Shown: positions 2,801-36,194 of the stretch, one piece after another
How positions within the stretch are numbered: the stretch's first letter is position 1
How the letters are laid out: every line of letters starts with the position of its first letter
Assembly: GCA_028821455.1 (NCBI GenBank)
Contig: JAPPGE010000014.1
Location: 1 to 64,000, forward strand
From: a bacterium
GTDB lineage: Bacteria > Pseudomonadota > Alphaproteobacteria > SP197
Direction: 5' to 3'
Length of the DNA: 64,000 nt
Made by a program: the position numbers and the translations under genes
Notes under the pieces: model-generated
Seen by the model: only the letters and a program-made list of their open reading frames with translations
What the model was told of the DNA's origin: nothing
The model's database searches: none

Positions 2801-3646
2801 TCAACTGTCTCTAGGAAGATAGTCGAAGCGCTCCATCTGGACGCGGTGCTGGGAACAGACCCTTTCAACCTGTTCTGGCGTCAGTTCCTGCCGCCAATGA
2901 CCGGCCGTGCCCCGGCGAAAGAACTTCTCCTGGGTAGGCGGTTTCTCCTTGAAACCCCGTTGATCCTCCTGGCGCCTCAGGGCCTTGAAAGAGGAATTCC
3001 TGATCGCCCGCAGAAGTCTCTGCCGCGACGGCTTCAGACCGAGAAACCGCGCTGTTGCCCCGAAGGTTTTCGAGGGGTGGTCCAGCATGTCCTCATAGCG
3101 CACCACGTGAAGGCGCGGATTGGGATTGCCGGTCCAGCTTTCGACGTGTTGCGACCAGCTCCCGAGAATGATCCCGACATTGTTCATCGCCGGATCATGC
3201 GGCGTCTCGAGGTTGTCGGTCGCCATGTGTTCGATCGCGTCGTCGACGCCGAATCCCATGAAGTCCGCAAACGACACGGCGACGTCCAGGGGATTTCTGA
3301 CGATGTAGATGGCACCGGACGTCACGGCAAGATTGATGGTTGGATACCCGCATATGGTCATCAGCGCGTTGTGAGTCTTGCAGAAGAGTGAGCCCTTCTG
3401 CGCCCGCGCGATCAGTTCGTTGACCCTTGGCCGCATGCTTGCCACGTCCTCGGGCAACCATTCGGCGAGCGGTCGCCGGTCGAGCATTTGAAACCACATT
3501 AGTGCGCCGTCGCTCTGCAGGAGTTCGCCTGCCATCCGGTTGACGTCGAACGAACGCTCTCGATTACTGAAAAGGTTGTGCAGGAACGCCCGCATCCACG
3601 TGTTCCCCGACTTCGGGAAACTTGCGAGCCAGACAATGTCACCCAT
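2801..3646 (-). CDS. PAPS-dependent sulfotransferase, cassette 1
   Basis: Transfers sulfonate from PAPS to an acceptor in the cytoplasm. It has 281 residues, the usual size of the Sulfotransfer_1 family. The 5'-phosphosulfate loop FPKSGNTW is at residues 10-17. The 3'-phosphate motif is IYIVRNPLDVAVSFADF in the middle, and near the C-terminus is RRGTAGHWRQELTPEQ, matching the family RKGxxGxWK-type motif. It starts MGDIVWLAS like its four paralogues. It follows porin 1 by about 70 bp with a conserved hairpin between them. Acceptor unknown; a cell-surface glycan is the natural guess given the porin linkage, but that is inference. Confidence 0.9.
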   Translation of the reverse strand: MGDIVWLASFPKSGNTWMRAFLHNLFSNRERSFDVNRMAGELLQSDGALMWFQMLDRRPLAEWLPEDVASMRPRVNELIARAQKGSLFCKTHNALMTICGYPTINLAVTSGAIYIVRNPLDVAVSFADFMGFGVDDAIEHMATDNLETPHDPAMNNVGIILGSWSQHVESWTGNPNPRLHVVRYEDMLDHPSKTFGATARFLGLKPSRQRLLRAIRNSSFKALRRQEDQRGFKEKPPTQEKFFRRGTAGHWRQELTPEQVERVCSQHRVQMERFDYLPRDS

Positions 3647-3716: not shown

Positions 3717-4712
3717 TCAGAAGCTGACTGCGAGTGCAATTCCGGCGAAGGTCGTGTCCTCATCATTGATGTTCGAATCGGCGCCGAGAGCACCGACAAC
3801 ATTGACGCCCGGGCCAAGGTTGTAGTTGGCCAGCAGGCGGGCCAAGTCGGTATCGACGGCATTGTCCTTCCGTCTCGTGCCGAAGTTCGCGCTGACCGAC
3901 AGCGAATCATCCACGCTGTAGCTGATGCCCATGTCCATCTGCTCAAGCTTGTCGCTGCCATCGTCCGTGTCGGTCGTCAGGTAAGCACCACCGATCGCGA
4001 CACCGGCCATGGAGACCTGGAGTCCGGCACCCGTCTCAGTGATCGTGGCACCGCCAGGCGTGTCATTTGACGCATGCCCGACTGACAGGGCAACGCCTGC
4101 ATCGCCGACCGCCCCGTCGTAGCGGGCACCGATGGAAATGAGATCGTTGCTTTCGCTCATGTCTCCCGTGCCGTGGCCTCCCCTGACTTCCCTCCCGGCC
4201 TCCGGTGCATAGGAGACACCGAACTGGAAGCCGTTGATCGACGGTGAGAAGTACATGATGGACGCGGAATCTCCCCACCATGCGCCGGGAAGCGTCCAAT
4301 GCCATCCACCGCTGCTGATGGAACCTGACCAGTAAGGCGTGTTGATGCCATAGATGAACGAAGCATATGGTGCCGTCGTGGCCATTGAGTACGATGCCGC
4401 ATCGTCATTGCCGATACGCAACGTACCGAACGAGCCTTCGACATAGGCGTAGGTCTCGTCCATCTGGTCACCGTTGGCCTCGCCATCTTCTTCGCCTTGG
4501 GAGGCTTCCTCACCCTCAAGTTCGAAGCGCACGCCGATCTCCAAGCCGCTGTCGAGCACCGTGCTGCCCTTGAAGTTGAGCTCGACATCGCTCGAGATGG
4601 CGATGTCGTCGGTTTCGGCGGCTGCGTCGTTGTCGACGACAGCGATGCCCCAGAACGAATTACCGCCGATGGCAATCGAGATCGGTTCGGCCATCATCTC
4701 GTCCGCAGCCAC
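3717..4712 (-). CDS. Silent outer-membrane porin 1, lacking a signal peptide
   Basis: A 331-residue beta-barrel porin of the Gram-negative porin type. The mature start is EMMAEPISIAIGG; in the middle is INGFQFGVSYAPEAG; the end is FAGIALAVSF, with the C-terminal Phe of outer-membrane barrels. The frame opens only at a GTG corresponding to the last residues of the signal peptide of porin 4 (SGVAA-EEMMAEP). An in-frame TGA lies 11 codons upstream with no ATG between, so as arranged it has no signal peptide and no recognisable promoter. The mature frame is undamaged, arguing for a donor or switchable copy rather than a pseudogene. Confidence 0.88.
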   Translation of the reverse strand: MAADEMMAEPISIAIGGNSFWGIAVVDNDAAAETDDIAISSDVELNFKGSTVLDSGLEIGVRFELEGEEASQGEEDGEANGDQMDETYAYVEGSFGTLRIGNDDAASYSMATTAPYASFIYGINTPYWSGSISSGGWHWTLPGAWWGDSASIMYFSPSINGFQFGVSYAPEAGREVRGGHGTGDMSESNDLISIGARYDGAVGDAGVALSVGHASNDTPGGATITETGAGLQVSMAGVAIGGAYLTTDTDDGSDKLEQMDMGISYSVDDSLSVSANFGTRRKDNAVDTDLARLLANYNLGPGVNVVGALGADSNINDEDTTFAGIALAVSF

Positions 4713-4840
4713 ACCCGAAGACGCACGAGTGGAACTAACTCACTGCTTCAACGCCGTACTTTTTCTCGCTATTCTGCAACTTCTGGCGAATTCGCGAGCG
4801 GATTCACTCGCGTTTGCAATCCGATTGCGAGGCGGTCTAC
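4713..4840. other. 128-bp recombination-site-like module 1
   Basis: The gap between the porin 1 GTG and the recombinase remnant ATG is exactly 128 bp, as in three other places (7238-7365, 10310-10437, 15846-15973). Read toward the porin it holds two TTGCA motifs about 37 bp apart (near GGATTGCAAACGCG and AGAAGTTGCAG), a GCGTTGAAGCAGTGA block containing the in-frame stop, and a CCAC-TC-GTGCG motif just before the porin homology begins. The arrangement resembles arm and core sites of a tyrosine-recombinase att site. Confidence 0.6.
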
Positions 4841-5244: not shown

Positions 5245-6084
5245 CTACCTAGGGAGGTAGTCGAAGCGTTTCATCTGCTCGTGGTGATCCGAGCAAATGC
5301 GTTCGACCTGCTTGTCAGTCAGTTCCTCCCTCCAACCGTTCGCAACACCACGGCGGAAGAAGCGTCGCTGAAAAGGGGAGCGTTCCTTGAAACCTAGTCT
5401 CTTCTCCTGACTCTGCATGACCTTGAATGACGAGTTTTTGATTGCCTTCAGCAATCTCTGTCGTGACGGCTTCAAGCCCAGGAAGCGGGTCAACTTTCTC
5501 AATATTCGAACCGGATCGTCATGCAAGTCCTCGTAGCGAACTACATGAAGCTGACGGTTGGGTCTGCCTGTCCAACTCTTGACATGCTGCGACCAGCTTC
5601 CAAGCAATAGCTGAACATTGTTGTACGCAGGGTCACTCTGTGTCTCCAAGTCGACGGTGCCCATGTGATTGATTGCCGTGTCAAGGTCGACCCCCAGGAA
5701 GTCAGCGAACGAGGGGGTCACATCAAGGGGGTTTCTCACTATGTAGACTGCGCCGGATGTCACTTCCATGTTGATGGTCGGATAGCCCCGTGACACGAGC
5801 AGTGCATTGTGTGTTTTGCAGACAATGGACCCCGGTGACGTCTGGGCAATCAGTTCGTCAACCTTGGGGCGCATCCGCGCCACGTCATCCGCACTCCATT
5901 CCTGGCAGGGTCGCTTGTCCAGCATGCGGTACCATGTGAGCATTCCGTCACTTTGGGTGAGGTCTCCCTGCATTCTGTTCACATTGATGGGATCGCTTCG
6001 GTTCCAAAAGAGGTTGTGAAGAAGCGCACGAATCCACGTGTTGCCCGACTTCGGATAGCTGGCCAGCCAGACTATGTCACCCAT
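5245..6084 (-). CDS. PAPS-dependent sulfotransferase, cassette 2
   Basis: A 279-residue sulfotransferase. The ATG at 6084 is chosen because it gives MGDIVWLASYPKSGNTW, aligned with the paralogues; the frame stays open upstream into the porin 2 gene on another frame, which is a shadow. The 5'-PSB loop is YPKSGNTW, the 3'-PB motif YIVRNPLDVTPSFADF and the C-terminal motif RRGVANGWREELTDKQ. It is the most divergent of the five in the middle region. It follows the cassette hairpin at 6114-6138. Likely cytoplasmic; acceptor unknown. Confidence 0.9.
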   Translation of the reverse strand: MGDIVWLASYPKSGNTWIRALLHNLFWNRSDPINVNRMQGDLTQSDGMLTWYRMLDKRPCQEWSADDVARMRPKVDELIAQTSPGSIVCKTHNALLVSRGYPTINMEVTSGAVYIVRNPLDVTPSFADFLGVDLDTAINHMGTVDLETQSDPAYNNVQLLLGSWSQHVKSWTGRPNRQLHVVRYEDLHDDPVRILRKLTRFLGLKPSRQRLLKAIKNSSFKVMQSQEKRLGFKERSPFQRRFFRRGVANGWREELTDKQVERICSDHHEQMKRFDYLPR

Positions 6085-6113
6085 GGTGTCTTTCTCAGCG
6101 TCCCGAAAGAAAA

Positions 6114-6169: not shown

Positions 6170-7237
6170 TCAGAAACTGATCCCCAACGCAATACCTGCA
6201 AAGGTAGTGTCCATGCCGGACACTTCGTTGGAGTCCAAGCCGACCGCACCAGCAATGTTGACGCCAGGACCAACATTGTAGTTGGCGAGCAACCGCATGT
6301 AGTCATTGTCAAGCGCGTCGCCCTGATCCTGATTGCCATAGTTCGCGCTGACCGCCCAGGGACCTTCACCATACATGATACCAAGATCGAACTGGGTCAG
6401 ATCATCGCTGGCGTTGTCGTTATCCTGGACGCTCATGGAACCGCCGATCGACACACCTGCCATGGAGACGACAACGCCTCCACCCCACTCCGTCACGGTC
6501 CTGCCGGGCGCTGCGGTCACTGCCTTCCGGACTGCGTCATCCGTCTTTCCGGTTCCTATGGTCCCGTCACCCTGGACGTACGCCCCAATCACGGCATCCA
6601 CTGCCGCAACGTCCTTGCTGGAGTAACCACCGGCAACTGTGACACCAGTGTCACCGAAGGCGCCGTCGTAGCGGACACCAAGGGACATCACCTCGCCCCC
6701 TTCGGCAGTCGGTGCGGTGGCGCTCTCCGCCTCCTTACCCGCCTCAGGTGCATAGGACAGACCGAACTGGAAGCCGTTGATGACCGGCGAGAAATATGTG
6801 ACACCTGCGGAAGCACCAGCGCCAGCGTCAGCATATGTGGTCATCCAAGGACTAGATCCAACGCTCGTCCCGGAATTGGCCCAGTAGTTGTCGTTGATCC
6901 CATAGAAGTATGTGGCATACGGCGCGACCGTCGCCATCTTCTTGCCGGCGGGGTCGTCGTTGCCAACGCGGATCGCGCCAAATGAACCGGAAATCTCGGC
7001 GAACTTCGCATCCCCCTGATCGGCATTCTTCTCGCCTTCGATCTCGATGCGTACGGCGACTTCAACACCGCTATCGAGAACAGTTGAACCGGAGAACGTC
7101 AGAAGAGCATCATTCGAAATGCGCGCATCGTCATCATTGGGAGCGGCTTCGTTATCGAATATCGCAACGCCCCAGTGTGATCTGCCGCCAATGGTCAGCG
7201 AGATCGGCTCGGCCATCATCTCTTCGGCAACGGCCAC
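6170..7237 (-). CDS. Silent outer-membrane porin 2, lacking a signal peptide
   Basis: A 355-residue porin, the longest of the five; the extra length lies around the middle (an insertion near KDVAAVDAVIGAYVQGDG), probably a surface loop. The core motifs INGFQFGLSYAPEAG, GISF-type C-terminus and final Phe are retained. The only in-frame start after the upstream TGA is the GTG at 7237 (GTG-GCC-GTT-GCC), which is the tail of a signal peptide. No promoter or Shine-Dalgarno sequence is seen. The reading frame is intact. It is followed by the conserved hairpin, sulfotransferase 2 and coiled-coil gene 2. Confidence 0.88.
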   Translation of the reverse strand: MAVAEEMMAEPISLTIGGRSHWGVAIFDNEAAPNDDDARISNDALLTFSGSTVLDSGVEVAVRIEIEGEKNADQGDAKFAEISGSFGAIRVGNDDPAGKKMATVAPYATYFYGINDNYWANSGTSVGSSPWMTTYADAGAGASAGVTYFSPVINGFQFGLSYAPEAGKEAESATAPTAEGGEVMSLGVRYDGAFGDTGVTVAGGYSSKDVAAVDAVIGAYVQGDGTIGTGKTDDAVRKAVTAAPGRTVTEWGGGVVVSMAGVSIGGSMSVQDNDNASDDLTQFDLGIMYGEGPWAVSANYGNQDQGDALDNDYMRLLANYNVGPGVNIAGAVGLDSNEVSGMDTTFAGIALGISF

Positions 7238-7365
7238 ACCCGAAGACGCACTTGTGAATCTAAATCACTGCTTCAACGCCATACTTTCTTTCGCCATGCT
7301 GCAACTTCTGGTGAATCCGCGAGTGGAATCACTCGTGTCTGCAACTCGATTGCGAAAGAGACTCT
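7238..7365. other. 128-bp recombination-site-like module 2
   Basis: It has the same length and motif order as module 1: GAGTTGCAGACACG, about 25 bp later CAGAAGTTGCAGCATGG, then GCGTTGAAGCAGTGA with the in-frame TGA, then TCAC-AA-GTGCG, then CTTCGGGTGTGGCC where similarity to the porin 4 signal-peptide region begins. Confidence 0.6.
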
Positions 7366-7534: not shown

Positions 7535-7864
7535 TCAGACCGCAGCTACCGTCGTGGTCTCTTCTTCGTGTCCCCTATCGACATGTACCGTGATCCGAAT
7601 GCCCTTATCGAGGGCGGCCAACACCCTGATCAGGCGGTCAAGCGTGAACCGGCCGAGATCAGCGTTGCGAATACGAGAGAAATCAGCCGCAGCGAAGCCG
7701 GTCAAGTCGCCAGCCCTTCGAACCGACAGCCCGCGCTCGTTCAGTATCGCGATGATGCGTGCTGCAAGAATCGCTTTGGCCTGCTTCAAGTCGGCATCCG
7801 GGTCACCGAGATCGCGAAATACATTGCCACTGCCCCTCACCAATTTTATGTTGTTTTCGCTCAT
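7535..7864 (-). CDS. XRE/HigA-like antitoxin
   Basis: A 109-residue helix-turn-helix protein. The central part, LAARIIAILNERGLSVRRAGDLTGF and onward to FSRIRNADLGRFTLDRLIRVLAAL, is the helix-turn-helix arrangement of antitoxins paired with HigB/Gp49-like toxins, and the C-terminal strand GIRITVHVDRG is typical of that subfamily. It overlaps the upstream toxin gene by 4 bp, the usual toxin-first order of higBA. It would neutralise the toxin and repress the shared promoter. Confidence 0.82.
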   Translation of the reverse strand: MSENNIKLVRGSGNVFRDLGDPDADLKQAKAILAARIIAILNERGLSVRRAGDLTGFAAADFSRIRNADLGRFTLDRLIRVLAALDKGIRITVHVDRGHEEETTTVAAV

Positions 7865-8211
7865 GACATCATCTCCCTTCGCAGTCGTGCCAGCCGGTTC
7901 CGGACGAGATCGATTTCGGCCTTCGGCGTCTTGATCCCCGTTTTCGATTTTTTACGAAACGCGTGGATCACCCAAAGCTGACTCGCAACTTCCGTCGCAT
8001 ACACCACGCGCCAAGCATCGGTTCTGTAGCGGACGGCGATCTCCAAGACACCCGACCCGAAACCCTTCAGTGGCTTGGCAATGTCCGCCTTTCCGCCCTC
8101 GGCCGCGATCGTCAATGCCGAATTGACCCTGTCCCGCACGGCGACGGGAAACGATTCAAACGCCTTTTGTGCGGCACTGACCCAACCGACCGGTCTCGAA
8201 TCACGGTTCAT
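7861..8211 (-). CDS. HigB/Gp49-like RelE-superfamily toxin
   Basis: A 116-residue mRNA-interferase-type toxin. FGSGVLEIAVRYRTDAWRVV followed by LWVIHAFRKKSKTGIKTP is the typical Gp49/HigB core. The ATG at 8211 is preferred over an in-frame TTG at 8226, since the TTGACA there looks more like promoter sequence. It is the first gene of the pair, immediately downstream of the inverted repeat at 8231-8243. The module sits between cassettes 2 and 3 in the porin array and may stabilise it (inference). Confidence 0.83.
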   Translation of the reverse strand: MNRDSRPVGWVSAAQKAFESFPVAVRDRVNSALTIAAEGGKADIAKPLKGFGSGVLEIAVRYRTDAWRVVYATEVASQLWVIHAFRKKSKTGIKTPKAEIDLVRNRLARLRREMMS

Positions 8212-8230
8212 ACGGTATGTTGTCAAAAGT

Positions 8231-8415: not shown

Positions 8416-9270
8416 TCAGATTCCAACGTACTCCGGTGGGAGATAGTCGAAACGTTTCATTTGGACGCGGTGTTGCGAACAGATCCTCTCCACCTGGTCG
8501 GGTGTCAGTTCCTGCCGCCAATGTCCGGCGGTGCCTCGACGGAAGAACTTCTCCTGGTTGGGCGACCTCTCCTTGAACCCGCCAGCCACCTCCTGGCTCT
8601 GCAGGGTCCTGAACGAGGAGTTCCGGATAGCTCGCAATAGCCTCTGGTGCGACGGCTTCAGTCCCAGAAACCGCGCCACGCCTCCGAATGTTGCGGAAGG
8701 CTTGTCGATCATGTCCTCATAGCGCACAACATGGAGACGCGCATTGGGGCTGCCCGTCCAACTCTCGACGTGCTGCGTCCAGCTCCCCGAGACGATCGAG
8801 ACATTGTTGCGCTCCGGGTCATGAGGCATCTCCAGGTAGTCGGTCGCCATCAATTCGATTGCCTGGTCAAGATCGGTTCCCATGAAGTTTGCCGAGGATG
8901 CTGCCACATCGAGAGGATTGCGCACGATGTAGAGGGCGCCCGATGTCACACCCAGATTGATGGTCGGGTGCCCACGCACAGTCATCAGGGCATTGTGTGT
9001 CTTGCAGAAGATGGATCCCGGCTGTCCCCGGGCGATCAGTTCGCAGACCTTCGACCGCATGGCGGCCACGTCCTCGGGCGACCATTCGCTCACCGGGCGC
9101 CTGTCCACCATCTGGAACCACATCAGGGACCCGTCGCTCTGCAGGATCTCTCCCTGCATCCTGTTGAGATCAGCCGGCTTCGCCTCGTTGTGGAACAGAT
9201 TGTGCAGAAACGCCCGCATCCACGTGTTGCCAGATTTCGGGTAGCTGGCCAGCCAGACGATGTCGCCCAC
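8416..9270 (-). CDS. PAPS-dependent sulfotransferase, cassette 3
   Basis: A 284-residue sulfotransferase. The GTG at 9270 is taken as start because it gives (V)GDIVWLASYPKSGNTW aligned with the MGDIV start of the paralogues; a TTG two codons upstream is the alternative. The 3'-PB motif is YIVRNPLDVAASSANF and the C-terminal motif RRGTAGHWRQELTPDQ. It is closest by eye to sulfotransferase 4 over the first 200 residues and to sulfotransferase 1 at the C-terminus, a mosaic pattern consistent with recombination between copies. Unlike cassettes 1, 2 and 4, no coiled-coil gene follows. Confidence 0.88.
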   Translation of the reverse strand: MGDIVWLASYPKSGNTWMRAFLHNLFHNEAKPADLNRMQGEILQSDGSLMWFQMVDRRPVSEWSPEDVAAMRSKVCELIARGQPGSIFCKTHNALMTVRGHPTINLGVTSGALYIVRNPLDVAASSANFMGTDLDQAIELMATDYLEMPHDPERNNVSIVSGSWTQHVESWTGSPNARLHVVRYEDMIDKPSATFGGVARFLGLKPSHQRLLRAIRNSSFRTLQSQEVAGGFKERSPNQEKFFRRGTAGHWRQELTPDQVERICSQHRVQMKRFDYLPPEYVGI

Positions 9271-9292
9271 GCACAAGACCCCTCAATGAAAA

Positions 9293-9349: not shown

Positions 9350-10309
9350 TCAGAAGCTGATCAGCAACGCAATGGCGGCGAAGGTCGTATCACCATCGTC
9401 TTGTGGGGAATCACCCCCGAGGACACCGGCCATGCTGACGCCCGGGCCAAGATTGTAGGTCCCCATCAGACGGGTAAAGTCTGTGTCGACACCTTCACTG
9501 TCCTGACTCGTGTTGCCGTAGTTGGCGCTGACCGCCCACGGACCATCACCGTACTTGATGCCAACATCGAACTGGGTCGTGTCGTCCATCGCATTGTCGT
9601 GGTCCTGAACGCGATAAGAACCGCCGATGGAAACTCCGGACATCGACACCACGAGACCTGTGTTCCAGTCCGTCTCCGTCGTATTCTCCATATCTTTGCT
9701 CGTCATGCCTGCAGCAGCTGTGACGCCGGTGTCACCGAACGCACCATCATAGCGCGAACCGACGGACCACGCGTCACCACCTTCCGCAGAATACACGGAG
9801 CCTGAGTCCACATTTGTGCCGGCCTCCGGCGCATATGACGCACCAAACTGGAAACCGTTGATCACGGGCGAAAAGTACAGCAGGGATGCCCCGTCCGAAC
9901 CTGCGCCGGCAAATGTCGAGTGCCAGTGACCGCTCAGATGCCCGGACCACCATGGCGTGTTGATGCCATACCAGTATGTGGCATAGGGGGCAGCCGTCGA
10001 CATCTTGTACGAAGCGGTGTCTTGGTTGCCGACGCGAAGCTCGCCGAAGGATCCGCTGACAGAGGCGAACTGCCCGTGGGCCGGCGATTTACCCGCTCCA
10101 CCATCGACATCGATTCGCATAGCGACTTCCAGACCATTGTCTAGAACAGTGGAGCCCTTGAAGACGAGCAAGACATCGTTGGAGATCGCGAGGTCGTCTT
10201 TGTTTGCATTGGCTTCGGCATCGCTGTCTACAATCGCGACGCCCCACATGGACCGGCCGCCAATGCTCAGAGAGATCGGCTCGGCCATCATCTCCTCCGC
10301 GACGGCCAC
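9350..10309 (-). CDS. Silent outer-membrane porin 3, lacking a signal peptide
   Basis: A 319-residue porin, the shortest of the five. It has EEMMAEPISLSIGG at the mature start, INGFQFGASYAPEAG in the middle, GIKYGDGPWAVSANYG, and AAIALLISF at the end with terminal Phe. The in-frame stop TGA lies 11 codons before the GTG start, with no start codon or signal peptide in between. It points left, away from the single expressed porin promoter at 10949-10977, and its 5' end is only about 0.7 kb from the 5' end of porin 4. The frame is intact. Confidence 0.88.
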   Translation of the reverse strand: MAVAEEMMAEPISLSIGGRSMWGVAIVDSDAEANANKDDLAISNDVLLVFKGSTVLDNGLEVAMRIDVDGGAGKSPAHGQFASVSGSFGELRVGNQDTASYKMSTAAPYATYWYGINTPWWSGHLSGHWHSTFAGAGSDGASLLYFSPVINGFQFGASYAPEAGTNVDSGSVYSAEGGDAWSVGSRYDGAFGDTGVTAAAGMTSKDMENTTETDWNTGLVVSMSGVSIGGSYRVQDHDNAMDDTTQFDVGIKYGDGPWAVSANYGNTSQDSEGVDTDFTRLMGTYNLGPGVSMAGVLGGDSPQDDGDTTFAAIALLISF

Positions 10310-10437
10310 ACCCGAAGCCGCACATGTGGTGTTAACTCATTGCTTCAACGCCGTACCTTCTTTCTGCATGCTGCAACTTCTGACGGATCCACGAGTGGAC
10401 TCACTCGCGTCTGCAACTCGACTACGAGGGAGACGCC
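10310..10437. other. 128-bp recombination-site-like module 3
   Basis: Exactly 128 bp between porin 3 and the recombinase remnant. It carries GAGTTGCAGACGCG, CAGAAGTTGCAGCATG, GCGTTGAAGCAATGA with the in-frame TGA, CCAC-AT-GTGCG, then CTTCGGGTGTGGCC joining the porin-homologous sequence. It lies in inverted orientation relative to the signal-peptide region of porin 4. Confidence 0.6.
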
Positions 10438-10712
10438 ATGGCCACAATGCATCTCACACGGGCCTTACGGCGCCAAAAGGCCACCCGCGACATCCGAGCC
10501 GAGTAGGCCTGTCGGATGTCCGTCTCCACGATCTGCGGCAACCGTGCGCCTCCCTTACCATCATGTGGAGAACATCCCCGCCGGTTGTGAAGCGCCTGAT
10601 TGGACACGCGCGGCCGACCATGACAGTCCGATCCGTACGGATCGGCGACCGGGGACCCGAGGCGGCAGCGGAGCGCATCGGAACCCTGATCGCCGGCATG
10701 CTTGGCATGGAC
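10438..10712 (+). pseudogene. Tyrosine recombinase remnant 3 (IntA start joined to IntB end)
   Basis: The first 20 codons, MATMHLTRALRRQKATRDI, match the start of IntA (14721-15845). After a stop, the translation SDVRLHDLRQPCASL followed by VVKRLIGHARPTMTVRSV and AAAERIGTLIAGMLGMD matches the last 70 residues of IntB (13597-14724; VRLHDLRHTYAS, AGMLDMG). About 2 kb of the two-gene operon has been deleted between the two points. The catalytic His of LRH and the Tyr of RYAH are lost (LRQ, VRSV), so it is dead. It shows that the IntA-IntB pair once stood next to porin 3 too. Confidence 0.8.
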
Positions 10713-10977: not shown

Positions 10978-11044
10978 GGCCCCTGCCAGCACCGTTGTGC
11001 CGGCATTTCCTTGATTAGGATCCTATCATGAAAGGAAGTGAACA

Positions 11045-12070
11045 ATGAAAAAGGCCCTTATGGGAACCACTGCCCTTGTGGCGGCCGCGGTGACTTCGGG
11101 TGTGGCCGCCGAGGAGATGATGGCCGAGCCGGTCTCGCTGACCATCGGCGGCAACTCGCACTGGGGTATTGCCATCGTCGACAACGAGGCAAAGGAAGAT
11201 CCAGATGACCTCGCCCTCTCGAACGACGTGGAACTCAGGTTCCACGGTTCAACAGTTCTGGACAGCGGAGTCGAGGTTGGTGTGCGCATCGAGATCGAAG
11301 GCGAGCAGAGCGGCGACCAAGGTGACGAGACCTACATGTACCTGGAAGGCTCGTTCGGCACGATCCGCATCGGCAACGATGATGCAGCAGGTGCCCAGAT
11401 GGGTACGGCGGCGCCCTATGCCACGTACTTCTATGGCATCAATACGCCTTGGTGGGTGGGCACATTCAGCGGCGCTAACAGCAACTGGCACACTACGTTC
11501 GCCGGTGCGAACGCGGGCGATGCCGCTTCCGTGATGTATTTCTCGCCGACCATCAACGGTTTCCAGTTCGGTCTCTCCTATGCCCCTGAGGCGGGTGTGG
11601 AAGCACGAAGCGGTACAGCTTCAAATGGCCCGGGGAACGAACTCGTCTCGATCGGTGCTCGCTATGACGGTGCCTTCGGTGATGCCGGTGTCACGATTGC
11701 CGCCGGGCATTCCAGCCACGACATGGAGGGAGGCCCGACCCCGACGGACACCTCTCTTGGCGTGGTGGTGTCCATGTCCGGAGTGTCAGTCGGCGGGTCG
11801 TACATGGTTACGGACCCAGACACAGACGGGGTAGACGACGTTGAGCAGATGGACGTCGGCATTAGCTATGGTGAGGGTCCGTGGACCGTCAGCGTCAACT
11901 ACGGCGAGAAGAGCCAAGACAGTTCCAATCTTGACAACACCTACGCCCGTCTGTTGGCCAACTACAACCTTGGCCCAGGCATCAATCTTGCCGGTGCTCT
12001 CGGTCAGGACACGTTTGAAGACGACGAAAACACGACGTTTGCCGGTATTGCGATGGCGATCAACTTCTGA
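11045..12070 (+). CDS. Expressed outer-membrane porin 4 with signal peptide
   Basis: A 341-residue porin and the only complete one of five. MKKALMGTTALVAAAVTSGVAA is a Sec signal peptide (quoted as MKKALMGTTALV then AAAVTSGVAA), with cleavage probably before EEMMAEP. The barrel has INGFQFGLSYAPEAG, GISYGEGPWTVSVNYG and the C-terminal AGIAMAINF. A Shine-Dalgarno sequence AAGGAAG ends 7 bp before the ATG, and a promoter lies at 10949. The signal-peptide 3' end (CTTCGGGTGTGGCC) is exactly where the silent copies start to be similar. It heads an operon with a sulfotransferase and a coiled-coil protein. It would form a general diffusion pore in the outer membrane. Confidence 0.92.
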   Translation: MKKALMGTTALVAAAVTSGVAAEEMMAEPVSLTIGGNSHWGIAIVDNEAKEDPDDLALSNDVELRFHGSTVLDSGVEVGVRIEIEGEQSGDQGDETYMYLEGSFGTIRIGNDDAAGAQMGTAAPYATYFYGINTPWWVGTFSGANSNWHTTFAGANAGDAASVMYFSPTINGFQFGLSYAPEAGVEARSGTASNGPGNELVSIGARYDGAFGDAGVTIAAGHSSHDMEGGPTPTDTSLGVVVSMSGVSVGGSYMVTDPDTDGVDDVEQMDVGISYGEGPWTVSVNYGEKSQDSSNLDNTYARLLANYNLGPGINLAGALGQDTFEDDENTTFAGIAMAINF

Positions 12071-12145: not shown

Positions 12146-12991
12146 ATGGGCGACATTGTCTGGCTGGCCAGCTATCCGAAATCGGGCAACACATGGATGC
12201 GAGCGTTCCTGCACAACCTCTTCCACAACGAGGCGAAGCCGACTGACTTGAACAGGATGCAGGGCGAGATCCTACAGAGCGACGGTTCGCTGATGTGGTT
12301 CAGGATGGTGGACAAGCGTCCGGTGAGCGAATGGTCGCCCGAGGATGTGGCCGCCATGCGGCCGAAGGTCTGCGAACTGATCGCCCGGGGACAGCCGGGA
12401 TCCATCTTCTGCAAGACCCACAATGCCCTGATGACGGTGCACGGGTATCCAACCATCAATCTGGGTGTGACATCGGGCGCCATCTACATCGTGCGCAATC
12501 CTCTCGATGTGGCGGCCTCTTCGGCGGACTTTATGGGAACCGATCTTGACCAGGCGATCGCGTTGATGGCGACCGACTACCTGGAGACGCCCCATGACCC
12601 GGAGCGCAACAATGCCTCGATTGTCTCGGGCAGTTGGTCACAGCATGTGGCGAGCTGGACCGGCCGGAAGAATGAGCGTCTCCACGTGGTCAGGTATGAA
12701 GACATGATCGACAAGCCTTCCGCAACCTTTGGAGGGGTGGCGCGATTTCTGGGGCTGAAGCCGTCGCGCCAGAGACTTTTGCGGGCCATCCGCAACTCCT
12801 CGTTTCGGACCATGCAGCGCCAGGAGGAGGCTGGCGGGTTCAAGGAGAGGTCGGAGCACCAGAAAAGCTTCTTCCGCCGCGGCAAGGCCGGGGGCTGGAA
12901 GGATGAACTGAGCGAGAACCAGATTCAGCAGATCTGCGAGGACCATGGCGAGCAGATGAAACGCTTCGGCTACCTCCCTGGGGACGGCTGA
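12146..12991 (+). CDS. PAPS-dependent sulfotransferase, cassette 4 (expressed)
   Basis: A 281-residue sulfotransferase downstream of the expressed porin. The ATG at 12146 gives MGDIVWLASYPKSGNTW; the upstream extension of the frame covers the hairpin and is not coding. The 3'-PB motif is YIVRNPLDVAASSADF and the C-terminal motif RRGKAGGWKDELSENQ. Being behind the only porin promoter in the array, it is probably the sulfotransferase currently made, by read-through of the 12101-12126 hairpin. Substrate unknown. Confidence 0.91.
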   Translation: MGDIVWLASYPKSGNTWMRAFLHNLFHNEAKPTDLNRMQGEILQSDGSLMWFRMVDKRPVSEWSPEDVAAMRPKVCELIARGQPGSIFCKTHNALMTVHGYPTINLGVTSGAIYIVRNPLDVAASSADFMGTDLDQAIALMATDYLETPHDPERNNASIVSGSWSQHVASWTGRKNERLHVVRYEDMIDKPSATFGGVARFLGLKPSRQRLLRAIRNSSFRTMQRQEEAGGFKERSEHQKSFFRRGKAGGWKDELSENQIQQICEDHGEQMKRFGYLPGDG

Positions 12992-13596: not shown

Positions 13597-14724
13597 TCAT
13601 CCCATGTCCAGCATGCCGGCGATCGCCGTTCCGATGCGTTCCGATGCCGCTTCAGTTTCCCGGTCGCCCATGTGTGCGTACCGCATTGTCATTGTCATCT
13701 GCGAGTGACCAAGGAGCTTTGCCACCACGGGAAGCGGCGTTCCCTGCATGACGGCATGGCTGGCATATGTGTGACGAAGATCGTGAAGACGGACATCCTC
13801 GATGCCAGCGTCCCTGCGAATTGTGTACCACAGCGAAAGATCGTCGGAGAGCGGTCGGCCTTGATCCAGGGGCGAAGGGAAAACGAAAGCGCTGTCACCC
13901 GTCATGTGGCGCTCAATGATGGTCCTTGCACCGGAATTCAGAAAGACCCTTCGAGGCCCCGTCTTGCTGTCGAGAAGCCGGAGGCCGTCATCGAACACTT
14001 CTCTCTTTTGCAGACGGACGATCTCGTTCCTGCGGCACCCGGTGAGCACAAGAAGCCGGATGATGTCGATCTGCACTCGCTGTGTGGGACTGATTCCATC
14101 GGAGTTGTCATGATGATCGAGAGCGTCGTGCAGGCGATGAAGTTCGTCCTCCGAAAGGAAGCGGGTGAGTTTTGGTCTGTGGTTGGGTCTGATGTTGCTG
14201 GTCGGGTTCGCGGCGATGTGGCCGCGGGAGACGGCATGATTGAAGATGTGGCGCAGGATCTTCAGACAGTGGTTGGCGCCGCCAGGCGCTGTTCTGCTGT
14301 AGTCGTCGAACCACCGGTGCACCATGGAAGGGGTGATTCGGTCCAGGCGCCGGGATCCGAACGTGGGCAATAGACGGCCAAGGTTTCTGTCATGCCACCG
14401 GATGGTGGCGGGCTTGCAGCGATAAATCCAAGAATCTCTCCAGGGCCCGGCAGCGAAGTCCCTGAAGCAAGGGACTGCTGTGTCATCTTCGCCGCGACGG
14501 GTCAGTCGCTCAAGGCTCTCCGTGCGGGCCTGCCTGACGGTCTTGAACGAGATCGGACCAAGTGACGCTCTCTTCCCGCTTTCGACATGGATGAAGCTGC
14601 GACCACCTGATGGGTACACCCGGACACCGAGGGAGGGAACGACTGTGTCGCAGAGTGTGTATTCCCGGGAGTTCGGCTTGAGTTTCCGAACGAGGGTGTC
14701 GGTCAGGCGCTCCCTGCGGTTCAT
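13597..14724 (-). CDS. Tyrosine recombinase IntB
   Basis: A 375-residue site-specific recombinase of the phage-integrase family. An N-terminal DUF4102-like segment (LVRKLKPNSREYTLCDTVVP) is followed by a core-binding domain and a catalytic domain. The catalytic set is visible: TGCRRNEI (Arg), DSKTGPRR (Lys), LHDLRHTYAS (His-x-x-Arg), LLGH (His) and MRYAHM (Tyr). Its start overlaps the IntA stop by 4 bp (ATGA), so the two are translationally coupled. The product presumably acts at the 128-bp modules or the porin signal-peptide sites. IntB-derived sequence also survives in remnant 3. Confidence 0.93.
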   Translation of the reverse strand: MNRRERLTDTLVRKLKPNSREYTLCDTVVPSLGVRVYPSGGRSFIHVESGKRASLGPISFKTVRQARTESLERLTRRGEDDTAVPCFRDFAAGPWRDSWIYRCKPATIRWHDRNLGRLLPTFGSRRLDRITPSMVHRWFDDYSRTAPGGANHCLKILRHIFNHAVSRGHIAANPTSNIRPNHRPKLTRFLSEDELHRLHDALDHHDNSDGISPTQRVQIDIIRLLVLTGCRRNEIVRLQKREVFDDGLRLLDSKTGPRRVFLNSGARTIIERHMTGDSAFVFPSPLDQGRPLSDDLSLWYTIRRDAGIEDVRLHDLRHTYASHAVMQGTPLPVVAKLLGHSQMTMTMRYAHMGDRETEAASERIGTAIAGMLDMG

Positions 14725-15845
14725 GTCCTGGCCCTCCCGAGAACGGTGCCGACGGCCTCGGCCGCTTCGGCCACTACGTTATCGGCAAGGTGCGTGTACT
14801 TGAGGGTGGTCGCGGGATCGCTGTGGCCGAGAAGTCGGCCGACGGTGAGGATGCTCTCTCCCTGCATGACAGCAAGGGAGGCGTACGTGTGGCGCAAGTC
14901 GTGAAGGCGGACATCTGACAGAGCTGCTTCGGCACGGATGGATGTCCAGAGTTTGCCGACACTACTGCTGGAGATGTGTCCCTTGGTGCGCGTCGACGGA
15001 AACACCCAGGGCGAGTTCTTGGGAAGGCCATCCAGGATTTGCCGGGCCGGAGACGACAGCCAGACCATGCGAGGTCCCGTCTTGCTGTCACGGAGATGAA
15101 GATGACCCTGCCGGTATTCCGTCCAGCGGAGCGACACGATTTCCTGACTGCGGCATCCCGTCAGAAGAAGGAGTCGGATGATCGCTACTTCGGTCGGAAA
15201 GCGCTGTTCATGTGTCTTCAGCACCAACCCGAGCCGGCGAACTTCTTCGACGGAGCAGTAACGCTCCCGTCCTTTCCGGCGATAACGCCTGATGCCCTTG
15301 CATGGATTGCTTCCCTGAGGCCGGTAGCCATAGTCCTCGGCACGCGCCATGATGACGGAGAGGATCGGGGCGGATCGGTCGGCGGCCCCAGGCGTGGCAT
15401 GGAGGGAGGCGAACCACTCCCGGACATCGGTGCCCGTGATTCCCGCAATCTGACGTCCTCGGAACCATGGCAGAATCTGTTTGCGGTAGTAGCCCCGGTT
15501 GACGGTGAGTGTCCCAGGCTTCCATGCGCGTCCGTAACGGCGAAAGACCTCCTCGGCGACCGTCTCGAACAGAGTCTCTTCCGTTGATGCGGGCGTGCCG
15601 ATTCGGGTGGCGGCAAGCAATGCCTGGGCACGTTTGCGGGCTTCGATGAGGCTGATCTCGGAGGCATCGCCGACGATCTTCCAGATTCGATATCCCTGAT
15701 GCTGTGTATGAACAAAGAAACGTTTGCGCCCGGTCGGATAGACACGGATTCCGAAACCCTTGAGACCGGCGTCACGGATGTCGCGGGTGGTCTTGCGGGA
15801 CCGGAGGGCCTTGATGCGAGCCTCGGTGAGATGTGTTGCGGCCAT
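14721..15845 (-). CDS. Tyrosine recombinase IntA
   Basis: A 374-residue phage-integrase-family recombinase. The ATG at 15845 is preferred (Shine-Dalgarno GAGAGAG upstream; the remnants in the other cassettes start at the equivalent ATG) over an in-frame TTG 9 codons upstream. The catalytic residues are in TGCRSQEI, DSKTGPRM, LHDLRHTYAS, LLGHSDPATT and LKYTHL. The N-terminal DUF4102-like domain is GFGIRVYPTGRKRFFVH. It is divergent from porin 5 across a 128-bp gap, and first of the two-gene recombinase operon. Its 5' end is duplicated, decayed, beside porins 1, 2 and 3. Confidence 0.93.
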   Translation of the reverse strand: MAATHLTEARIKALRSRKTTRDIRDAGLKGFGIRVYPTGRKRFFVHTQHQGYRIWKIVGDASEISLIEARKRAQALLAATRIGTPASTEETLFETVAEEVFRRYGRAWKPGTLTVNRGYYRKQILPWFRGRQIAGITGTDVREWFASLHATPGAADRSAPILSVIMARAEDYGYRPQGSNPCKGIRRYRRKGRERYCSVEEVRRLGLVLKTHEQRFPTEVAIIRLLLLTGCRSQEIVSLRWTEYRQGHLHLRDSKTGPRMVWLSSPARQILDGLPKNSPWVFPSTRTKGHISSSSVGKLWTSIRAEAALSDVRLHDLRHTYASLAVMQGESILTVGRLLGHSDPATTLKYTHLADNVVAEAAEAVGTVLGRART

Positions 15846-15973
15846 GGATTCTCTCTCGCAATTTCGTTGCAAACGCGGGAGAATCCATTAGAGAATTCCA
15901 CCGCAGTTGCAGAATAGAAAGAGAAAATAAGACGTATTATTAGTTAGTTAGCACCACGGGTGCGCCCACTGGT
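15846..15973. other. 128-bp recombination-site-like module 5 (next to intact recombinases)
   Basis: The gap between IntA and porin 5 is again exactly 128 bp. It contains CGTTGCAAACGCG, CGCAGTTGCAGAATAG, an AT-rich stretch (AAAGAGAAAATAAGACGTA), TTAGTTAGTTAG with the in-frame TAG, CCAC-GG-GTGCG, then GGTGTGGCCGTTGCC. Compared with modules 1-3 the GCGTTGAAGCAGTGA block is replaced by AT-rich sequence. It is the best candidate for the functional att site because the recombinases are intact. Confidence 0.62.
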
Positions 15974-16954
15974 GTGGCCGTTGCCGAGGAGATGATGGCC
16001 GAGCCGATCTCGCTCACCATTGGCGGCAGGTCGCACTGGGGTGTAGCGTTGTTTGACGACGAGGCAGCGGGGGAGCGTGACGATGTCCAGATTTCGAACG
16101 ATGCCCTGCTGACGTTCTCGGGTTCGACAGTTCTCGACAATGGTGTCGAAGTCGCCATCCGCATCGAGGTCGAAGGCGAGAAAGCCAGTGATAACGCGGA
16201 TGCGAAGTTCGCTGAATTGTCGGGCTCCTTTGGCGCGATTCGTGTCGGCAATGACGATGTTGCCGGCAAGAAGATGGCCACGCTCGCACCGTACGCGACG
16301 TACTTCTACGGTATCAACGATGCGTACTGGTCGTTCTCGTATTCAAGCGCGTTTGATGGCGCTACGAGTGGTCAGACCTGGACGGACACGTACGCCAATG
16401 CCGGTGTAGGCGCTTCCGCGAATCTCACATATTTCTCGCCTGTGATCAACGGATTCCAGTTCGGCGCTACTTATGTGCCGGAAGCTGGTCAAGAAGCACC
16501 GTCGGGCACTGCGCCCGTCGGCAAGGGGAATGATGCGGTTTCCGTCGGCCTGCGCTACGACGGCGCGTTCGGCGATACTGGCATCGCCGCTTCTTTTGGA
16601 TTCACGAACCACGACGGTGCTGAAGTCACCACAAGTGAGTGGGGTGCTGGTCTGGTCGTCTCCATGATGGGTGTGTCACTCGGCGGCTCCATGAGTGTGC
16701 AGGACGATGAGAGCAACGACGACCTGACTCAGATGGACCTCGGAATCAGTTATGGCGAAGGTGCCTGGACAGTCAGTGCGAATGTCGGCAATGCCACCGA
16801 CGACGATGCGAACATTGACACTGACTTTGCACGTCTGCTGGCCAACTACAATCTCGGGCCAGGTATCAACGTGGCAGGCGCGCTCGGCAATGATTCGCCG
16901 ATCACTGGCAACGACACCTCGTTCGCCGGTATCGCGTTGGGTATCAGTTTCTGA
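15974..16954 (+). CDS. Silent outer-membrane porin 5, lacking a signal peptide
   Basis: A 326-residue porin. GTG-GCC-GTT-GCC leads into EEMMAEPISLTIGG; INGFQFGATYVPEAG and GISYGEGAWTVSANVG follow; it ends AGIALGISF with terminal Phe. An in-frame TAG at 15941 and the absence of any ATG before the mature sequence leave it without a signal peptide. It is closest to porin 2 (RSHWGVALFDDEA versus RSHWGVAIFDNEA). The frame is intact and it is followed by the hairpin and sulfotransferase 5. It lies in the same orientation as porin 4, so recombination between their 5' ends would delete, not invert, the 4.9 kb between. Confidence 0.88.
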   Translation: MAVAEEMMAEPISLTIGGRSHWGVALFDDEAAGERDDVQISNDALLTFSGSTVLDNGVEVAIRIEVEGEKASDNADAKFAELSGSFGAIRVGNDDVAGKKMATLAPYATYFYGINDAYWSFSYSSAFDGATSGQTWTDTYANAGVGASANLTYFSPVINGFQFGATYVPEAGQEAPSGTAPVGKGNDAVSVGLRYDGAFGDTGIAASFGFTNHDGAEVTTSEWGAGLVVSMMGVSLGGSMSVQDDESNDDLTQMDLGISYGEGAWTVSANVGNATDDDANIDTDFARLLANYNLGPGINVAGALGNDSPITGNDTSFAGIALGISF

Positions 16955-17028: not shown

Positions 17029-17889
17029 ATGGGTGACATAGTCTGGCTCGCCAGCTACCCCAAGTCAGGCAACACGTGGATGCGTGCGTTCCTGCACAAT
17101 TTCTTCTTCAATGCGAAGCGTCCGGTCAATCTCAATAAATTGCAGGGCCAGGTTTCCCAGAGCGACGGAATGCTCATGTGGTTCCAGATGCTCGACAAAC
17201 GTCCTTGCGAAGAATGGACGGCGGAAGACGTGGCGCGCATGCGGCCCAAGGTCAATGAACTCATTGCCAGAGGTCAAACCGGGTCCGTGTTCTGCAAGAC
17301 CCATAACGCGATGGTGACCGCATACGGCTTTCCCACCATCAATCTTCAGGTGACCTCAGGGGCAATCTACATCGTGAGAAATCCTCTCGACTTGGCTTCA
17401 TCGCTTGCCGACTACTCGGGGATCACCGTGGAGAAGGCAGTCGACTGGTTGGAGACAGACGATCTCGAAACTGAGAGTAATCCAGCATTCAATCACATCA
17501 AGCTCAGGCTCGGAAGCTGGTCTCAACATGTCGAGAGCTGGACCGGACGGCCCAATCCTCGTCTCCATGTCGTGCGCTATGAAGATATGCTGGCGAATCC
17601 TGAAAGGGCCTTCGGGGAGGTATCCCGTTTCCTGCGGCTGAAGCCATCTCGCCAGAGGCTCCTTCGAGCCGTCAGGAATTCATCGTTTGACACCATGCGG
17701 CGACAGGAGGAGAGACACGGTTTCAACGAACGCTCTGCGCACCAGGAGAGGTTCTTCCGCCGTGGCACGGCCGGGGGATGGAAAGAGGAATTGACAGATG
17801 AGCAGGTCAGGCGGATCTGCGAAACCCATGGAGACCAGATGAAGCGCTTCGGCTACCTGTCACCGGGCGGACAGCCCACCATCGGGTGA
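17029..17889 (+). CDS. PAPS-dependent sulfotransferase, cassette 5
   Basis: A 286-residue sulfotransferase starting MGDIVWLASYPKSGNTW. The 3'-PB motif is YIVRNPLDLASSLADY and the C-terminal motif RRGTAGGWKEELTDEQ. The segment after the 3'-PB (SGITVEKAVDWLETDDLE) is clearly different from the other copies, suggesting a different acceptor (inference). A GGGG-rich Shine-Dalgarno follows the hairpin. No coiled-coil gene follows; the array ends here, next to an NCS2 gene fragment. Confidence 0.9.
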   Translation: MGDIVWLASYPKSGNTWMRAFLHNFFFNAKRPVNLNKLQGQVSQSDGMLMWFQMLDKRPCEEWTAEDVARMRPKVNELIARGQTGSVFCKTHNAMVTAYGFPTINLQVTSGAIYIVRNPLDLASSLADYSGITVEKAVDWLETDDLETESNPAFNHIKLRLGSWSQHVESWTGRPNPRLHVVRYEDMLANPERAFGEVSRFLRLKPSRQRLLRAVRNSSFDTMRRQEERHGFNERSAHQERFFRRGTAGGWKEELTDEQVRRICETHGDQMKRFGYLSPGGQPTIG

Positions 17890-17989: not shown

Positions 17990-18420
17990 TCAGATGTCCT
18001 CGGGCAGGACCTGGTTCAGCACGATGGCGATGATGGCCGTGGGAAGCAGGCCGGAAACGGCCATGGTGTGGAGGACGCCCGGCAGGTATTGGACTGCGGT
18101 GGGGACCAGGTTGAGACCGAGCCCGAAGACTAGGGAAACGGCGATGATCACCATGTTCCAGCGGTTCATGGTGACTCCTGCCAGCATGTTGAGGCCGGCG
18201 GCGGCCACCATGCCGAACATCACGATGACGCCGCCGAGGACGGGGAGCGGCATGGAGGCGATCACCGCGCCGATCTTCGGCAGGAATCCGCAGAGGACGA
18301 GGATGATGGCGCCGATCGTGACGACGTGCCGGCTCATGATTCCGGTCATGCCGACAATGCCGACGTTCTGGCTGAACGAGGTGTTGGGAAGGCCGCCGAA
18401 GACAGATGCCACCGCGGTTC
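17990..18420 (-). pseudogene. 3' fragment of an NCS2 uracil/xanthine permease gene
   Basis: About 430 bp that match the 3' end of the intact permease at 58513-59832. The translation runs from SVFGGLPNTSFSQNVGIVG to TAIIAIVLNQVLPEDI, about 140 residues, with over 90 percent nucleotide identity by eye. Similarity stops sharply near 18420 (CCACCGCGGTT). No 5' part is present, so it is not functional. Both copies lie in the same orientation. Confidence 0.88.
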
Positions 18421-29638: not shown

Positions 29639-31087
29639 ATGTGCATTAAGACCTTATCATTCCTTGGCGGCACAGTTATCGGAACACTCGCTGCATCGGC
29701 ATGGGTTGCGGTTTCGGAACCTCCCCAGCCTTGGTCCCTGGAAGCAGGCTTCGAGGACGATCCCAGGTCCGTCGAGATTGCCGCCGGCGGTCCGAGCCAT
29801 GACGGTTGGGGCGGTTGCGGTTTCCTCCCTGACGAGCCCCAGCTCGTCTTCGACTACGTCAGCGGAGACTCCACACTCAGCATCGGCACGGTGAGTCGCG
29901 AGGCGGACACCACGCTTGAGGTCACAACGCCCTTGGGCCACGTCCTGTGCGATGACGACAGCGGCGGCGATGGCGATGCGCTTGTGACACTGCAGAGCCC
30001 GGAAAGCGGCCAGTACGAAATTCGGGTCGGAACCTACTCCAACGCAGAGATCGGCAGCCGTTCCGACGTGTACGTCACCGAATTCATCGCCGGTGATGGC
30101 AGCATCAAGACGACCGCACAGTCAACGCACCGATGGTCTCTGGAAGCAGGCTTCGAGGACGATCCCAGGTTCGTCGAGATTGCCGCCGGCGGTCCGAACC
30201 ATGGCGATTGCGGTTTCCTTCCGAACGAACCCCAGCTCGTCGTCGACTATGTCAGTGGAGACTACACGCTCAGCATCGGCACCGAGAGCTACCAGGCGGA
30301 CACCACGCTTGAGGTCACAATGCCCTCGGGCGATGTCCTGTGCGATGACGACAGTGGTGGTGTCAGCAACGCGCTCGTCACACTGGACGACCCGGAAAGC
30401 GGCCAGTACGAGATTCGGATCGGAACCTACTCCTACGACGAGGTCGGCAGCCGTTCCGATGTCTTCGTCACGGAACTGACAGGCGAGAGCGACGTTTTTT
30501 CCGGAACGGGCTTCCTGGTCTCCGGCCATCATATCGTCACGAACTGGCATGTCGTTGATGAGGCTGTCGGCAGCGTGACCGTGCGGGCGCTGGGTCTCCC
30601 GGAGTTTCAGGCCGAGATCGTGACGTACAACGAAGAGGACGACATCGCGCTGCTCTACGCCGAAGAGATGCCCGAAGGTCTGAACGAGGTGGTCTTCCGC
30701 TCACGGCCGCCGGTCTCCATCGGCGAGACGATCTTCGCCTTCGGGTTCCCCGTGTCGCACGGCAACTTCACGCAAGGCAATGTCTCGGCACTGACCGGCG
30801 CCGATGGCGATCTCGCCGGTCTCCAGTTCACGGCCCCGGTCCAGCCGGGCAGTTCCGGTTCGCCGCTGTTTGACGCGGAGGGACATGTGATCGGCATGGT
30901 GACATCGAGAGTCGCGGACGGACAACTGGTCAACTTCGCACTGCGCGGCACCCTGGTCAGGGTCTTCCTCGATACGAACAATGTCGACTACGAGCTCGCG
31001 GATTCGGACGACATCCTTCCACCTCAAGACATCGGCAACGATGCTCAGGATTCCGTGGTGGAGCTGATCGTCAACTCCGGTTGGTAA
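29639..31087 (+). CDS. Secreted trypsin-like serine protease with two N-terminal repeat domains
   Basis: 482 residues. The N-terminus has an uncleaved-looking or Sec signal segment (LSFLGGTVIGTLAASAWVAV). Then there are two tandem beta-sandwich repeats of about 115 residues, each beginning WSLEAGFEDDPR.VEIAAGG and containing LCDDDSGG and ESGQYEIR.GTYS, resembling bacterial pre-peptidase-type domains. The protease domain follows, with the catalytic triad visible: His in VTNWHVVD, Asp in EEDDIALLY, Ser in VQPGSSGSPLF. The Shine-Dalgarno GGAGG is 8 bp before the ATG. It probably acts in the periplasm or outside the cell. The next gene is also secreted. Confidence 0.88.
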   Translation: MCIKTLSFLGGTVIGTLAASAWVAVSEPPQPWSLEAGFEDDPRSVEIAAGGPSHDGWGGCGFLPDEPQLVFDYVSGDSTLSIGTVSREADTTLEVTTPLGHVLCDDDSGGDGDALVTLQSPESGQYEIRVGTYSNAEIGSRSDVYVTEFIAGDGSIKTTAQSTHRWSLEAGFEDDPRFVEIAAGGPNHGDCGFLPNEPQLVVDYVSGDYTLSIGTESYQADTTLEVTMPSGDVLCDDDSGGVSNALVTLDDPESGQYEIRIGTYSYDEVGSRSDVFVTELTGESDVFSGTGFLVSGHHIVTNWHVVDEAVGSVTVRALGLPEFQAEIVTYNEEDDIALLYAEEMPEGLNEVVFRSRPPVSIGETIFAFGFPVSHGNFTQGNVSALTGADGDLAGLQFTAPVQPGSSGSPLFDAEGHVIGMVTSRVADGQLVNFALRGTLVRVFLDTNNVDYELADSDDILPPQDIGNDAQDSVVELIVNSGW

Positions 31088-34949: not shown

Positions 34950-35050
34950 TGCGACACTGCACCCTGATCGATAGGCGCCCCGGCGAGAAGGTTGAATTCC
35001 GGGGATAGAAGACCGGTTTCGACATCGTCCAAATGCAAGGTCAGAGTGCG
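34256..35050 (+). repeat. Near-identical repeat, copy A (kinase catalytic half and downstream)
   Basis: About 0.8 kb matching 37801-38597. By eye the kinase-coding part (34272-34871) is essentially identical to 37817-38416, while the upstream sensor-domain part (33828-34250) is clearly more diverged. This gradient suggests gene conversion. Confidence 0.85.
34950..35050 (-). pseudogene. PIN-domain (VapC-like) gene scrap A
   Basis: Minus-strand LDDVETGLLSPEFNLLAGAP-IDQGAVSHQLS matches LKGVRLLETSPEIDLLAAAL-VDQGAVPHHAA in the PIN protein at 36195-36665. Only about 33 codons remain. Confidence 0.6.
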
Positions 35051-35943: not shown

Positions 35944-35986
35944 AGATCGGAGTCCCCTGAAAGTGCCTCTCCGATGGTCGCTACCG

Positions 35987-36190: not shown

Positions 36191-36194
36191 GGTT

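Follow-up and report, generated by a model that had tools for sequence, protein, structure and literature searches.

In Dichelobacter nodosus Omp1, one outer-membrane protein gene is expressed, several variants are silent, and inversion of a common 5′ segment changes which of them is expressed. Multiple site-specific inversion at Omp1 was reportedly described by Moses et al. in 1995. The sap surface-layer genes of Campylobacter fetus undergo inversion over a long stretch of 5′ identity. Both of these inversion systems are mentioned, together with shufflons and the shuffling of SusC-SusD genes in Bacteroides fragilis by Tsr0667, a dedicated single invertase, in one source (PMC11852207), and the title of the Omp1 work is cited in a second (PMC5903667). 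GInts are genomic islands with three integrases, a recombinase operon at one end, direct-repeat att sites of 10-11 nt and variable cargo (PMC5385486).

In this study, we analysed a porin locus within a 64,000-nt stretch of alphaproteobacterial DNA (the window; contig JAPPGE010000014.1 of the genome here called G000), of which no description was found in the searched open-access literature. Judged from its sequence, the locus is likely a variant of Omp1-type inversion switching that is built from island integrases. Like Omp1, it has one porin with a signal peptide (SP), silent variants and a putatively movable common 5′ segment: a single copy carries the presumed promoter and the 5′ coding segment, the others are silent and lack both, and inverted sites bound the segment in the window (attC/attD) as well as on contigs C93 and C99 of the congeneric genome G004. 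Unlike Omp1, to which the likeness is by description only, it has its core in the SP codons, paired island-type integrases within the segment and a sulfotransferase in every cassette. With C. fetus sap it has in common a single promoter that would be moved among surface-protein cassettes with common 5′ sequence; unlike sap, it has a short core belonging to an integrase site. As in shufflons and the Tsr0667 system, a recombinase and several sites would sort outer-membrane protein genes, but the recombinases are paired genomic-island integrases instead of a single dedicated invertase. The recombinase operon at one island end, the short direct-repeat att and the variable cargo resemble GInts, whereas a GInt has an operon of three recombinases plus GinD and this locus has two recombinases only, and the att is different. 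Nor does the locus qualify as an integron, since the integron-integrase model scored 35.2, far below its cut-off of 265.

The porin array and its single signal peptide

Between positions 2400 and 17900, the window holds five pairs of a porin (Porin_4) and a sulfotransferase (Sulfotransfer_1), with porins A, B and C reading leftward and D and E rightward (Table 1). Porins D and E were assigned to their family by profile search and A, B and C by homology. An SP is present in porin D only, and querying the whole genome with porin D returned these five porins alone (six match rows, one porin being split in two). Two overlapping tyrosine-recombinase genes, int1 and int2, lie upstream of porin E and divergent from it, and a degenerate int1 start is found at the equivalent place in porins A, B and C.

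Table 1. Features of the porin locus, in window coordinates
Feature	Position	Strand	Remarks
Sulfotransferase of porin A	2801..3646	-	Homology
Porin A	3717..4715	-	Intact ORF without SP
attA core	4708..4720	-	CTTCGGGTGTGGC
Sulfotransferase of porin B	5245..6085	-	Homology
Porin B	6170..7240	-	Intact ORF without SP
attB core	7233..7245	-	CTTCGGGTGTGGC
Sulfotransferase of porin C	8416..9276	-	Homology
Porin C	9350..10312	-	Intact ORF without SP
attC core	10305..10317	-	CTTCGGGTGTGGC; inverted relative to attD
Candidate invertible segment	10318..11093	.	776 bp, between inverted attC and attD
Promoter/leader region and SP codons	10880..11098	+	Promoter inferred
Porin D	11045..12070	+	Porin_4, E 4.8e-50; sole copy with SP
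attD core	11094..11106	+	CTTCGGGTGTGGC; within porin D SP codons; alignment; same core type at island ends
Sulfotransferase of porin D	12146..12991	+	Sulfotransfer_1, E 1.1e-31
int2, tyrosine recombinase	13597..14724	-	Phage_integrase
int1, tyrosine recombinase with arm-binding domain	14724..15842	-	Family search
Module 1 (int1 upstream region)	15843..15964	+	End TTAGCACC-ACG-GGTGCG
attE core	15966..15978	+	CCACTGGTGTGGC; overlap unlike A-D
Porin E	15971..16954	+	Intact ORF without SP
Sulfotransferase of porin E	17029..17889	+	Family search

Several further features were recorded in and around the array. A TrwC-type relaxase with helicase domains (1-2370, -) lies immediately past the porin A unit, and DNA matching the N-terminal part of the TrwC relaxase also adjoins the array on G004 C93. 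The porin C unit includes a Gp49/HTH_37 toxin-antitoxin-like pair (7540-8226, -). Beside the porin E unit, a C-terminal fragment (17993-18418, -) has 96% amino acid identity to a full permease gene at 58516-60060 (-); at the place of this fragment, contig C3 of G004 has a full-length permease gene. Tandem and direct internal repeats of 80-300 nt with 84-93% identity occur at 29732-30475, 31783-32667 and 33228-38607.

The junction core and the island integrases

Alignment of the five 5′ regions revealed CTTCGGGTGTGGC exactly at the porin 5′ ends of A, B, C and D, where CTTCG precedes GGTGTGGC; porin E has only GGTGTGGC in common with them (15971-15978), with CCCACT before it. To the left of the core, D has the SP codons MKKALMGTTALVAAAVTSGV, and A, B, C and E have a common module of about 130 bp. 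The SP is lost at one point in four of the five porins, the core N5-6 + GGTGTGGC. The first-pass annotation had placed an abrupt onset of similarity inside the SP codons, with these codons left in D and unrelated module sequence in the silent copies, and both statements agree with the alignment, which gave a single common point and not a different point of SP loss in each copy. Its further statement that all five copies are similar to the right of the site holds from GGTGTGGC onward but, from CTTCGGGTGTGGC, for four of the five only, E being the exception.

The exact 13-mer occurs four times in the window, always at a porin junction. With up to two mismatches it occurs six times against a shuffle mean of 3.0, which is not unusual, so that the evidence lies in the position of the core in each gene and not in the word itself; counting the word in the window was discarded as a test because near matches are equally common in shuffles. 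Followed upstream, the frame of porins A, B, C and E meets a stop after 8-9 codons and contains no ATG. When the SP of D is joined to any of these four, a single open frame of 338-374 residues results (four of four in frame), in line with the earlier claim that any join at this site keeps a secreted porin in frame.

By their substitution rates, the porins lacking an SP are under purifying selection. Pairs without an SP on both sides gave dN/dS values of 0.22 (E/C93E), 0.17 (B/E), 0.13 (B/C93E), 0.31 (p1/p2), 0.21 (C99/G001) and 0.32 (A/C), and the SP-bearing pair D/C93D gave 0.28. The range over all 12 porin pairs computed was 0.13-0.32, the values being rough in some pairs, where synonymous divergence exceeds 1.

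Matches to int1 were found at 39 places in G000, 14 of them at E <= 1e-80 and mostly as int1-int2 pairs. We examined 27 int1 upstream ends: 13 from G000 (13 of the 14 have readable upstream DNA, the copy on C39 being excluded as it lies at a contig end), 12 fetched of the 19 matches in G004, and both of those in G001. The strict pattern, CACCnnnGGTGCG-like sequence followed by 5 or 6 nt and GGTGT (or TGTGT), was present at 23 of the 27 ends across these three congeneric genomes, and L082, L064, L098 and L092 are readable variants of it. Non-porin sequence adjoins 23 of the 27, the neighbours including AbiEii-like and Rieske-oxygenase-like fragments (translations read by eye). Inspection by eye showed similar ends in most of 30 named loci listed, out of 39 found, chiefly in MAGs labelled Alphaproteobacteria, several of which we take from their names to be sponge-derived. 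What had been annotated as a 128-bp module is, by these ends, evidently the upstream/attachment region of a divergent int1-int2 pair, one of a multicopy set of genomic-island integrases. In the module (e.g., 15843-15960), two TTGCA repeats surround an inverted repeat (CGGGAgaATCC...GGAAT..TCCCG in L020), an arrangement conserved over many module copies that may represent arm or operator sites.

The core was delimited at one island, on G000 contig C90. Contig C82 of G004 carries an uninterrupted version of the right flank of the C90 pair; the matching left flank is found on C90 at a distance of 18.5 kb. The empty site on C82 reads GCCG-CCATAGGTGTAG-ATCC, the left junction of the island GCCG-CCATAGGTGTAG-AGAACCC and the right junction GTGCG-CCATAGGTGTAG-ATCC, so that CGCCATAGGTGTAG bounds the 18.5-kb island as a direct repeat. 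Taken together, the direct repeat and the empty site indicate that 5 nt + GGTGT(AG) is the att core. The porin junction is, by its sequence, of the same att-core type, and the interpretation of the junction as an att site, given in the first-pass annotation, stands: it corresponds to the att core of a tyrosine-recombinase system whose core type recurs at island ends. An integrase at one end, a direct-repeat att and an empty site in a relative were found together for the C90 island only; another candidate empty site, on G000 C38 for the G004 C29 pair, gave no left half in the stretch compared.

The view that a porin signal sequence is a special target was rejected, since other int1 ends abut unrelated sequence and the same integrase family adjoins many unrelated genes in G000 and its relative. 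In the int1 tree, the window copy beside porin E groups with G004 C3 and that of G004 C99 with G001 C323; the four do not fall together and two changes are forced. The tree thus speaks against the porin-locus integrases having a single origin, which was rejected, and two integrase lineages have reached the porin core. At 22 non-porin loci, a search for partner cores gave no exact inverted match beyond int2 (four of these loci have no DNA there), so inversion is not the usual reaction of these integrases; one exact inverted core lies on a right flank (L025, +3550), and the other non-porin loci have one-mismatch matches or none. Comparison of left with right flanks by tblastx gave, outside the porin locus, only weak scattered matches.

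A further int1-int2 pair, at L028 (G000 C96), has a truncated autotransporter-like beta-domain gene to the right of int1, with a full beta-domain homologue containing a near-identical core about 3.3 kb further on; the G004 pairs L091 and L093 flank sequence related to this region. The L028 region may be another outer-membrane locus with such an arrangement.

The promoter-SP segment in the window and in relatives

Between 10318 and 11093, the module is followed by what remains of the int1 start, then by a remnant of the int2 C-terminus (10506-10709), and finally by the promoter region and the SP. A consensus promoter scan of the leader region found none. G000 has a single copy of the promoter-SP DNA and G004 three, of which two are full and one, beside int2, is a remnant; no copy was found in the other eight of the ten genomes of the genus. 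On G004 C99 (L082) the order is intact, with an SP-less porin, divergent module-int1-int2-promoter region-SP and a terminal core; both cores are inverted and have ACCACT-GGTGT in common. The SP there runs to a stop after two codons, and an apparent island left end with a NikA-like gene follows. NikA-like matches at two left ends scored 26.6 and 21.0, below the gathering score of 27; these and the TrwC relaxase, which may or may not belong to the same island, are candidate mobilization genes of a putative integrative and mobilizable element. On G004 C93, the segment has the same layout, flanked by a D-like porin and an E-like one. Within all three SP/module partner pairs, the 5-nt overlap ahead of GGTGT agrees (CTTCG in the window, CGACT on C93, CCACT on C99), and it differs between the three porin loci; among the 22 non-porin ends listed, only one pair has a common 5-mer. 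Agreement within a locus could also stem from descent.

Two local features of these regions were noted. The leader of porin D has at about 10985-11005 a GCACC-n3-GTGC motif like the module end, a possible recombinase or operator site, which is perfect as GCACCagtGGTGC in the G004 C3 remnant. At about 8550-8600 of L082, the C99 porin has near its start a long poly-G tract and a repeated block, probably an assembly artefact.

The window order D-sulfotransferase-tail-int2-int1-module-E-sulfotransferase-permease is collinear with G004 C3. The counterpart of D there, p1 (83% amino acid identity), has the module in place of the SP, and p1 and D are 41% identical over the 60 nt that end at the core and 90% over the 60 that follow. 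The counterpart of E, p2, is D-like (82% to D, 58% to E), and the closest G004 relative of E (79%) lies on C93, across the promoter-SP segment. DNA identity between the window and C3 is about 80-90% from int1/module to the core, about 60% over the porin and sulfotransferase and about 90% in the permease. The placement of p1 and p2 and this drop in identity indicate that the SP is joined to different porins in the two species and that the breakpoint of this change is the core. Since all copies are conserved over the first ~45 nt of the mature porin, the E/p2 break is resolvable no finer than from the core to ~45 nt. On its right, the block exchanged between E and p2 extends past the sulfotransferase to a place without a recognizable core, and a further event, for instance homologous recombination, is needed to account for that edge. 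Beside the relaxase there is silent porin A in the window and an SP-bearing porin in G004, and the promoter-SP segment, which faces the relaxase on C93, is directed away from it in the window. The number of cassettes is unequal, so several events separate the two loci. Contigs C93 and C3 probably meet inside the E-like porin (C93 end and C3:1841 start, equivalent to 16548/16550 of the window); the joined order C93-C3 is thus a presumed one, of which the contig-end sequences gave no proof. An ATPase and an IS21-like element (names from reading) lie between the units on C3.

The first-pass annotation had suggested looking in relatives for empty porin genes with uninterrupted signal peptides. Intact porins with an SP do occur in relatives without a close int1 relative beside them; however, GGTGTG was found in the first 36 codons of none of the 10 porins with an SP-like start (17 loci listed, 7 of them unreadable as a start in frame), so these are not true empty sites.

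A putative switch of porin display

We consider it probable that a paired tyrosine-recombinase att core in the SP codons allows inversion of the promoter-SP-int segment to switch the displayed porin. The promoter and SP codons would form one end of the segment and the integrase gene(s) with the upstream attachment module the other, with outward-facing cores at both ends. Recombination between the inverted cores would flip the segment and join promoter and SP in frame to porin-sulfotransferase cassette D or cassette C, the unused cassette staying behind the module without a start codon or SP. Exchange with cores A and B would bring in further cassettes, as would exchange with E, though less readily given its different overlap, and variant porins with their paired sulfotransferases would be displayed in a mutually exclusive manner. 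The swapping of mature domains proposed earlier for this site is supported as in-frame exchange, with the likely route changed to inversion of the promoter-SP segment. Inversion is favoured because the segment lies between cores that are inverted relative to each other and agree in their overlaps (C/D; G004 C93 and C99). Against it, the int genes in the window segment are remnants, so that the intact int1-int2 pair beside porin E would have to act on the segment in trans, and the core of that pair (CCACT) mismatches the SP core (CTTCG). We infer that inversion still occurs, that int1-int2 is the responsible enzyme, that the leader region holds a promoter, and that the system serves surface variation.

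A rather unlikely alternative is that the SP core is a plain integration site, at which repeated int1-int2 islands left porin cassettes and then decayed into a fossil array with no programmed switching. The membership of the pair in a family of island integrases that occupy many unrelated sites, the int1 remnants at A, B and C, the two separate integrase lineages at porin loci and the island left end with its NikA-like gene after the SP on C99 are consistent with this. Yet insertion alone gives no account of the promoter-SP inverted beside int2 at three loci (window, C93 and C99), and it leaves unexplained both the intact SP-less porins under purifying selection and the overlap match within partner pairs. 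Very improbable is the release of excised circles, implied by a check that the first-pass annotation proposed, in which the D and E cores, direct repeats around int1-int2, would recombine to remove porin D, its sulfotransferase and the int genes and restore an SP joined in frame to porin E: the D and E overlaps do not match (CTTCG versus CCACT), as those of p1 and p2 on G004 C3 do not (CGACT and CCACT), while the resolved C90 island has identical overlaps at both ends. Least credible is ordinary duplication of the porin-sulfotransferase pair with homologous recombination or gene conversion, in which the core would be a conserved mature start, as the conserved first ~45 nt would allow, and the extra copies would be decaying, for the SP/module break is exact and coincides with the att-core type of unrelated island ends, and the four silent ORFs are all intact and evolve under purifying selection.

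Beyond the inversion switch preferred here, it is a tentative possibility that genomic-island integrases have been turned into a surface-protein display switch, in which an att core in SP codons lets SP-less porin-sulfotransferase cassettes be delivered, parked and exchanged, and secreted only once joined to the single promoter-SP segment. Such a platform for exported proteins would resemble an integron, and different integrase lineages would have made use of it on at least two occasions.

The proposed switch offers a concrete, testable site, the 776-bp attC × attD segment, with a complete version on G004 C99. With a core this loose (overlap + GGTGT), inversion is a reaction that an island integrase could come to perform. 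If the proposal is true, porin variation in relatives of uncultured sponge symbionts would be tied to the integrase of a mobile island, the porin being a meeting point of phages, host immunity and nutrient uptake.
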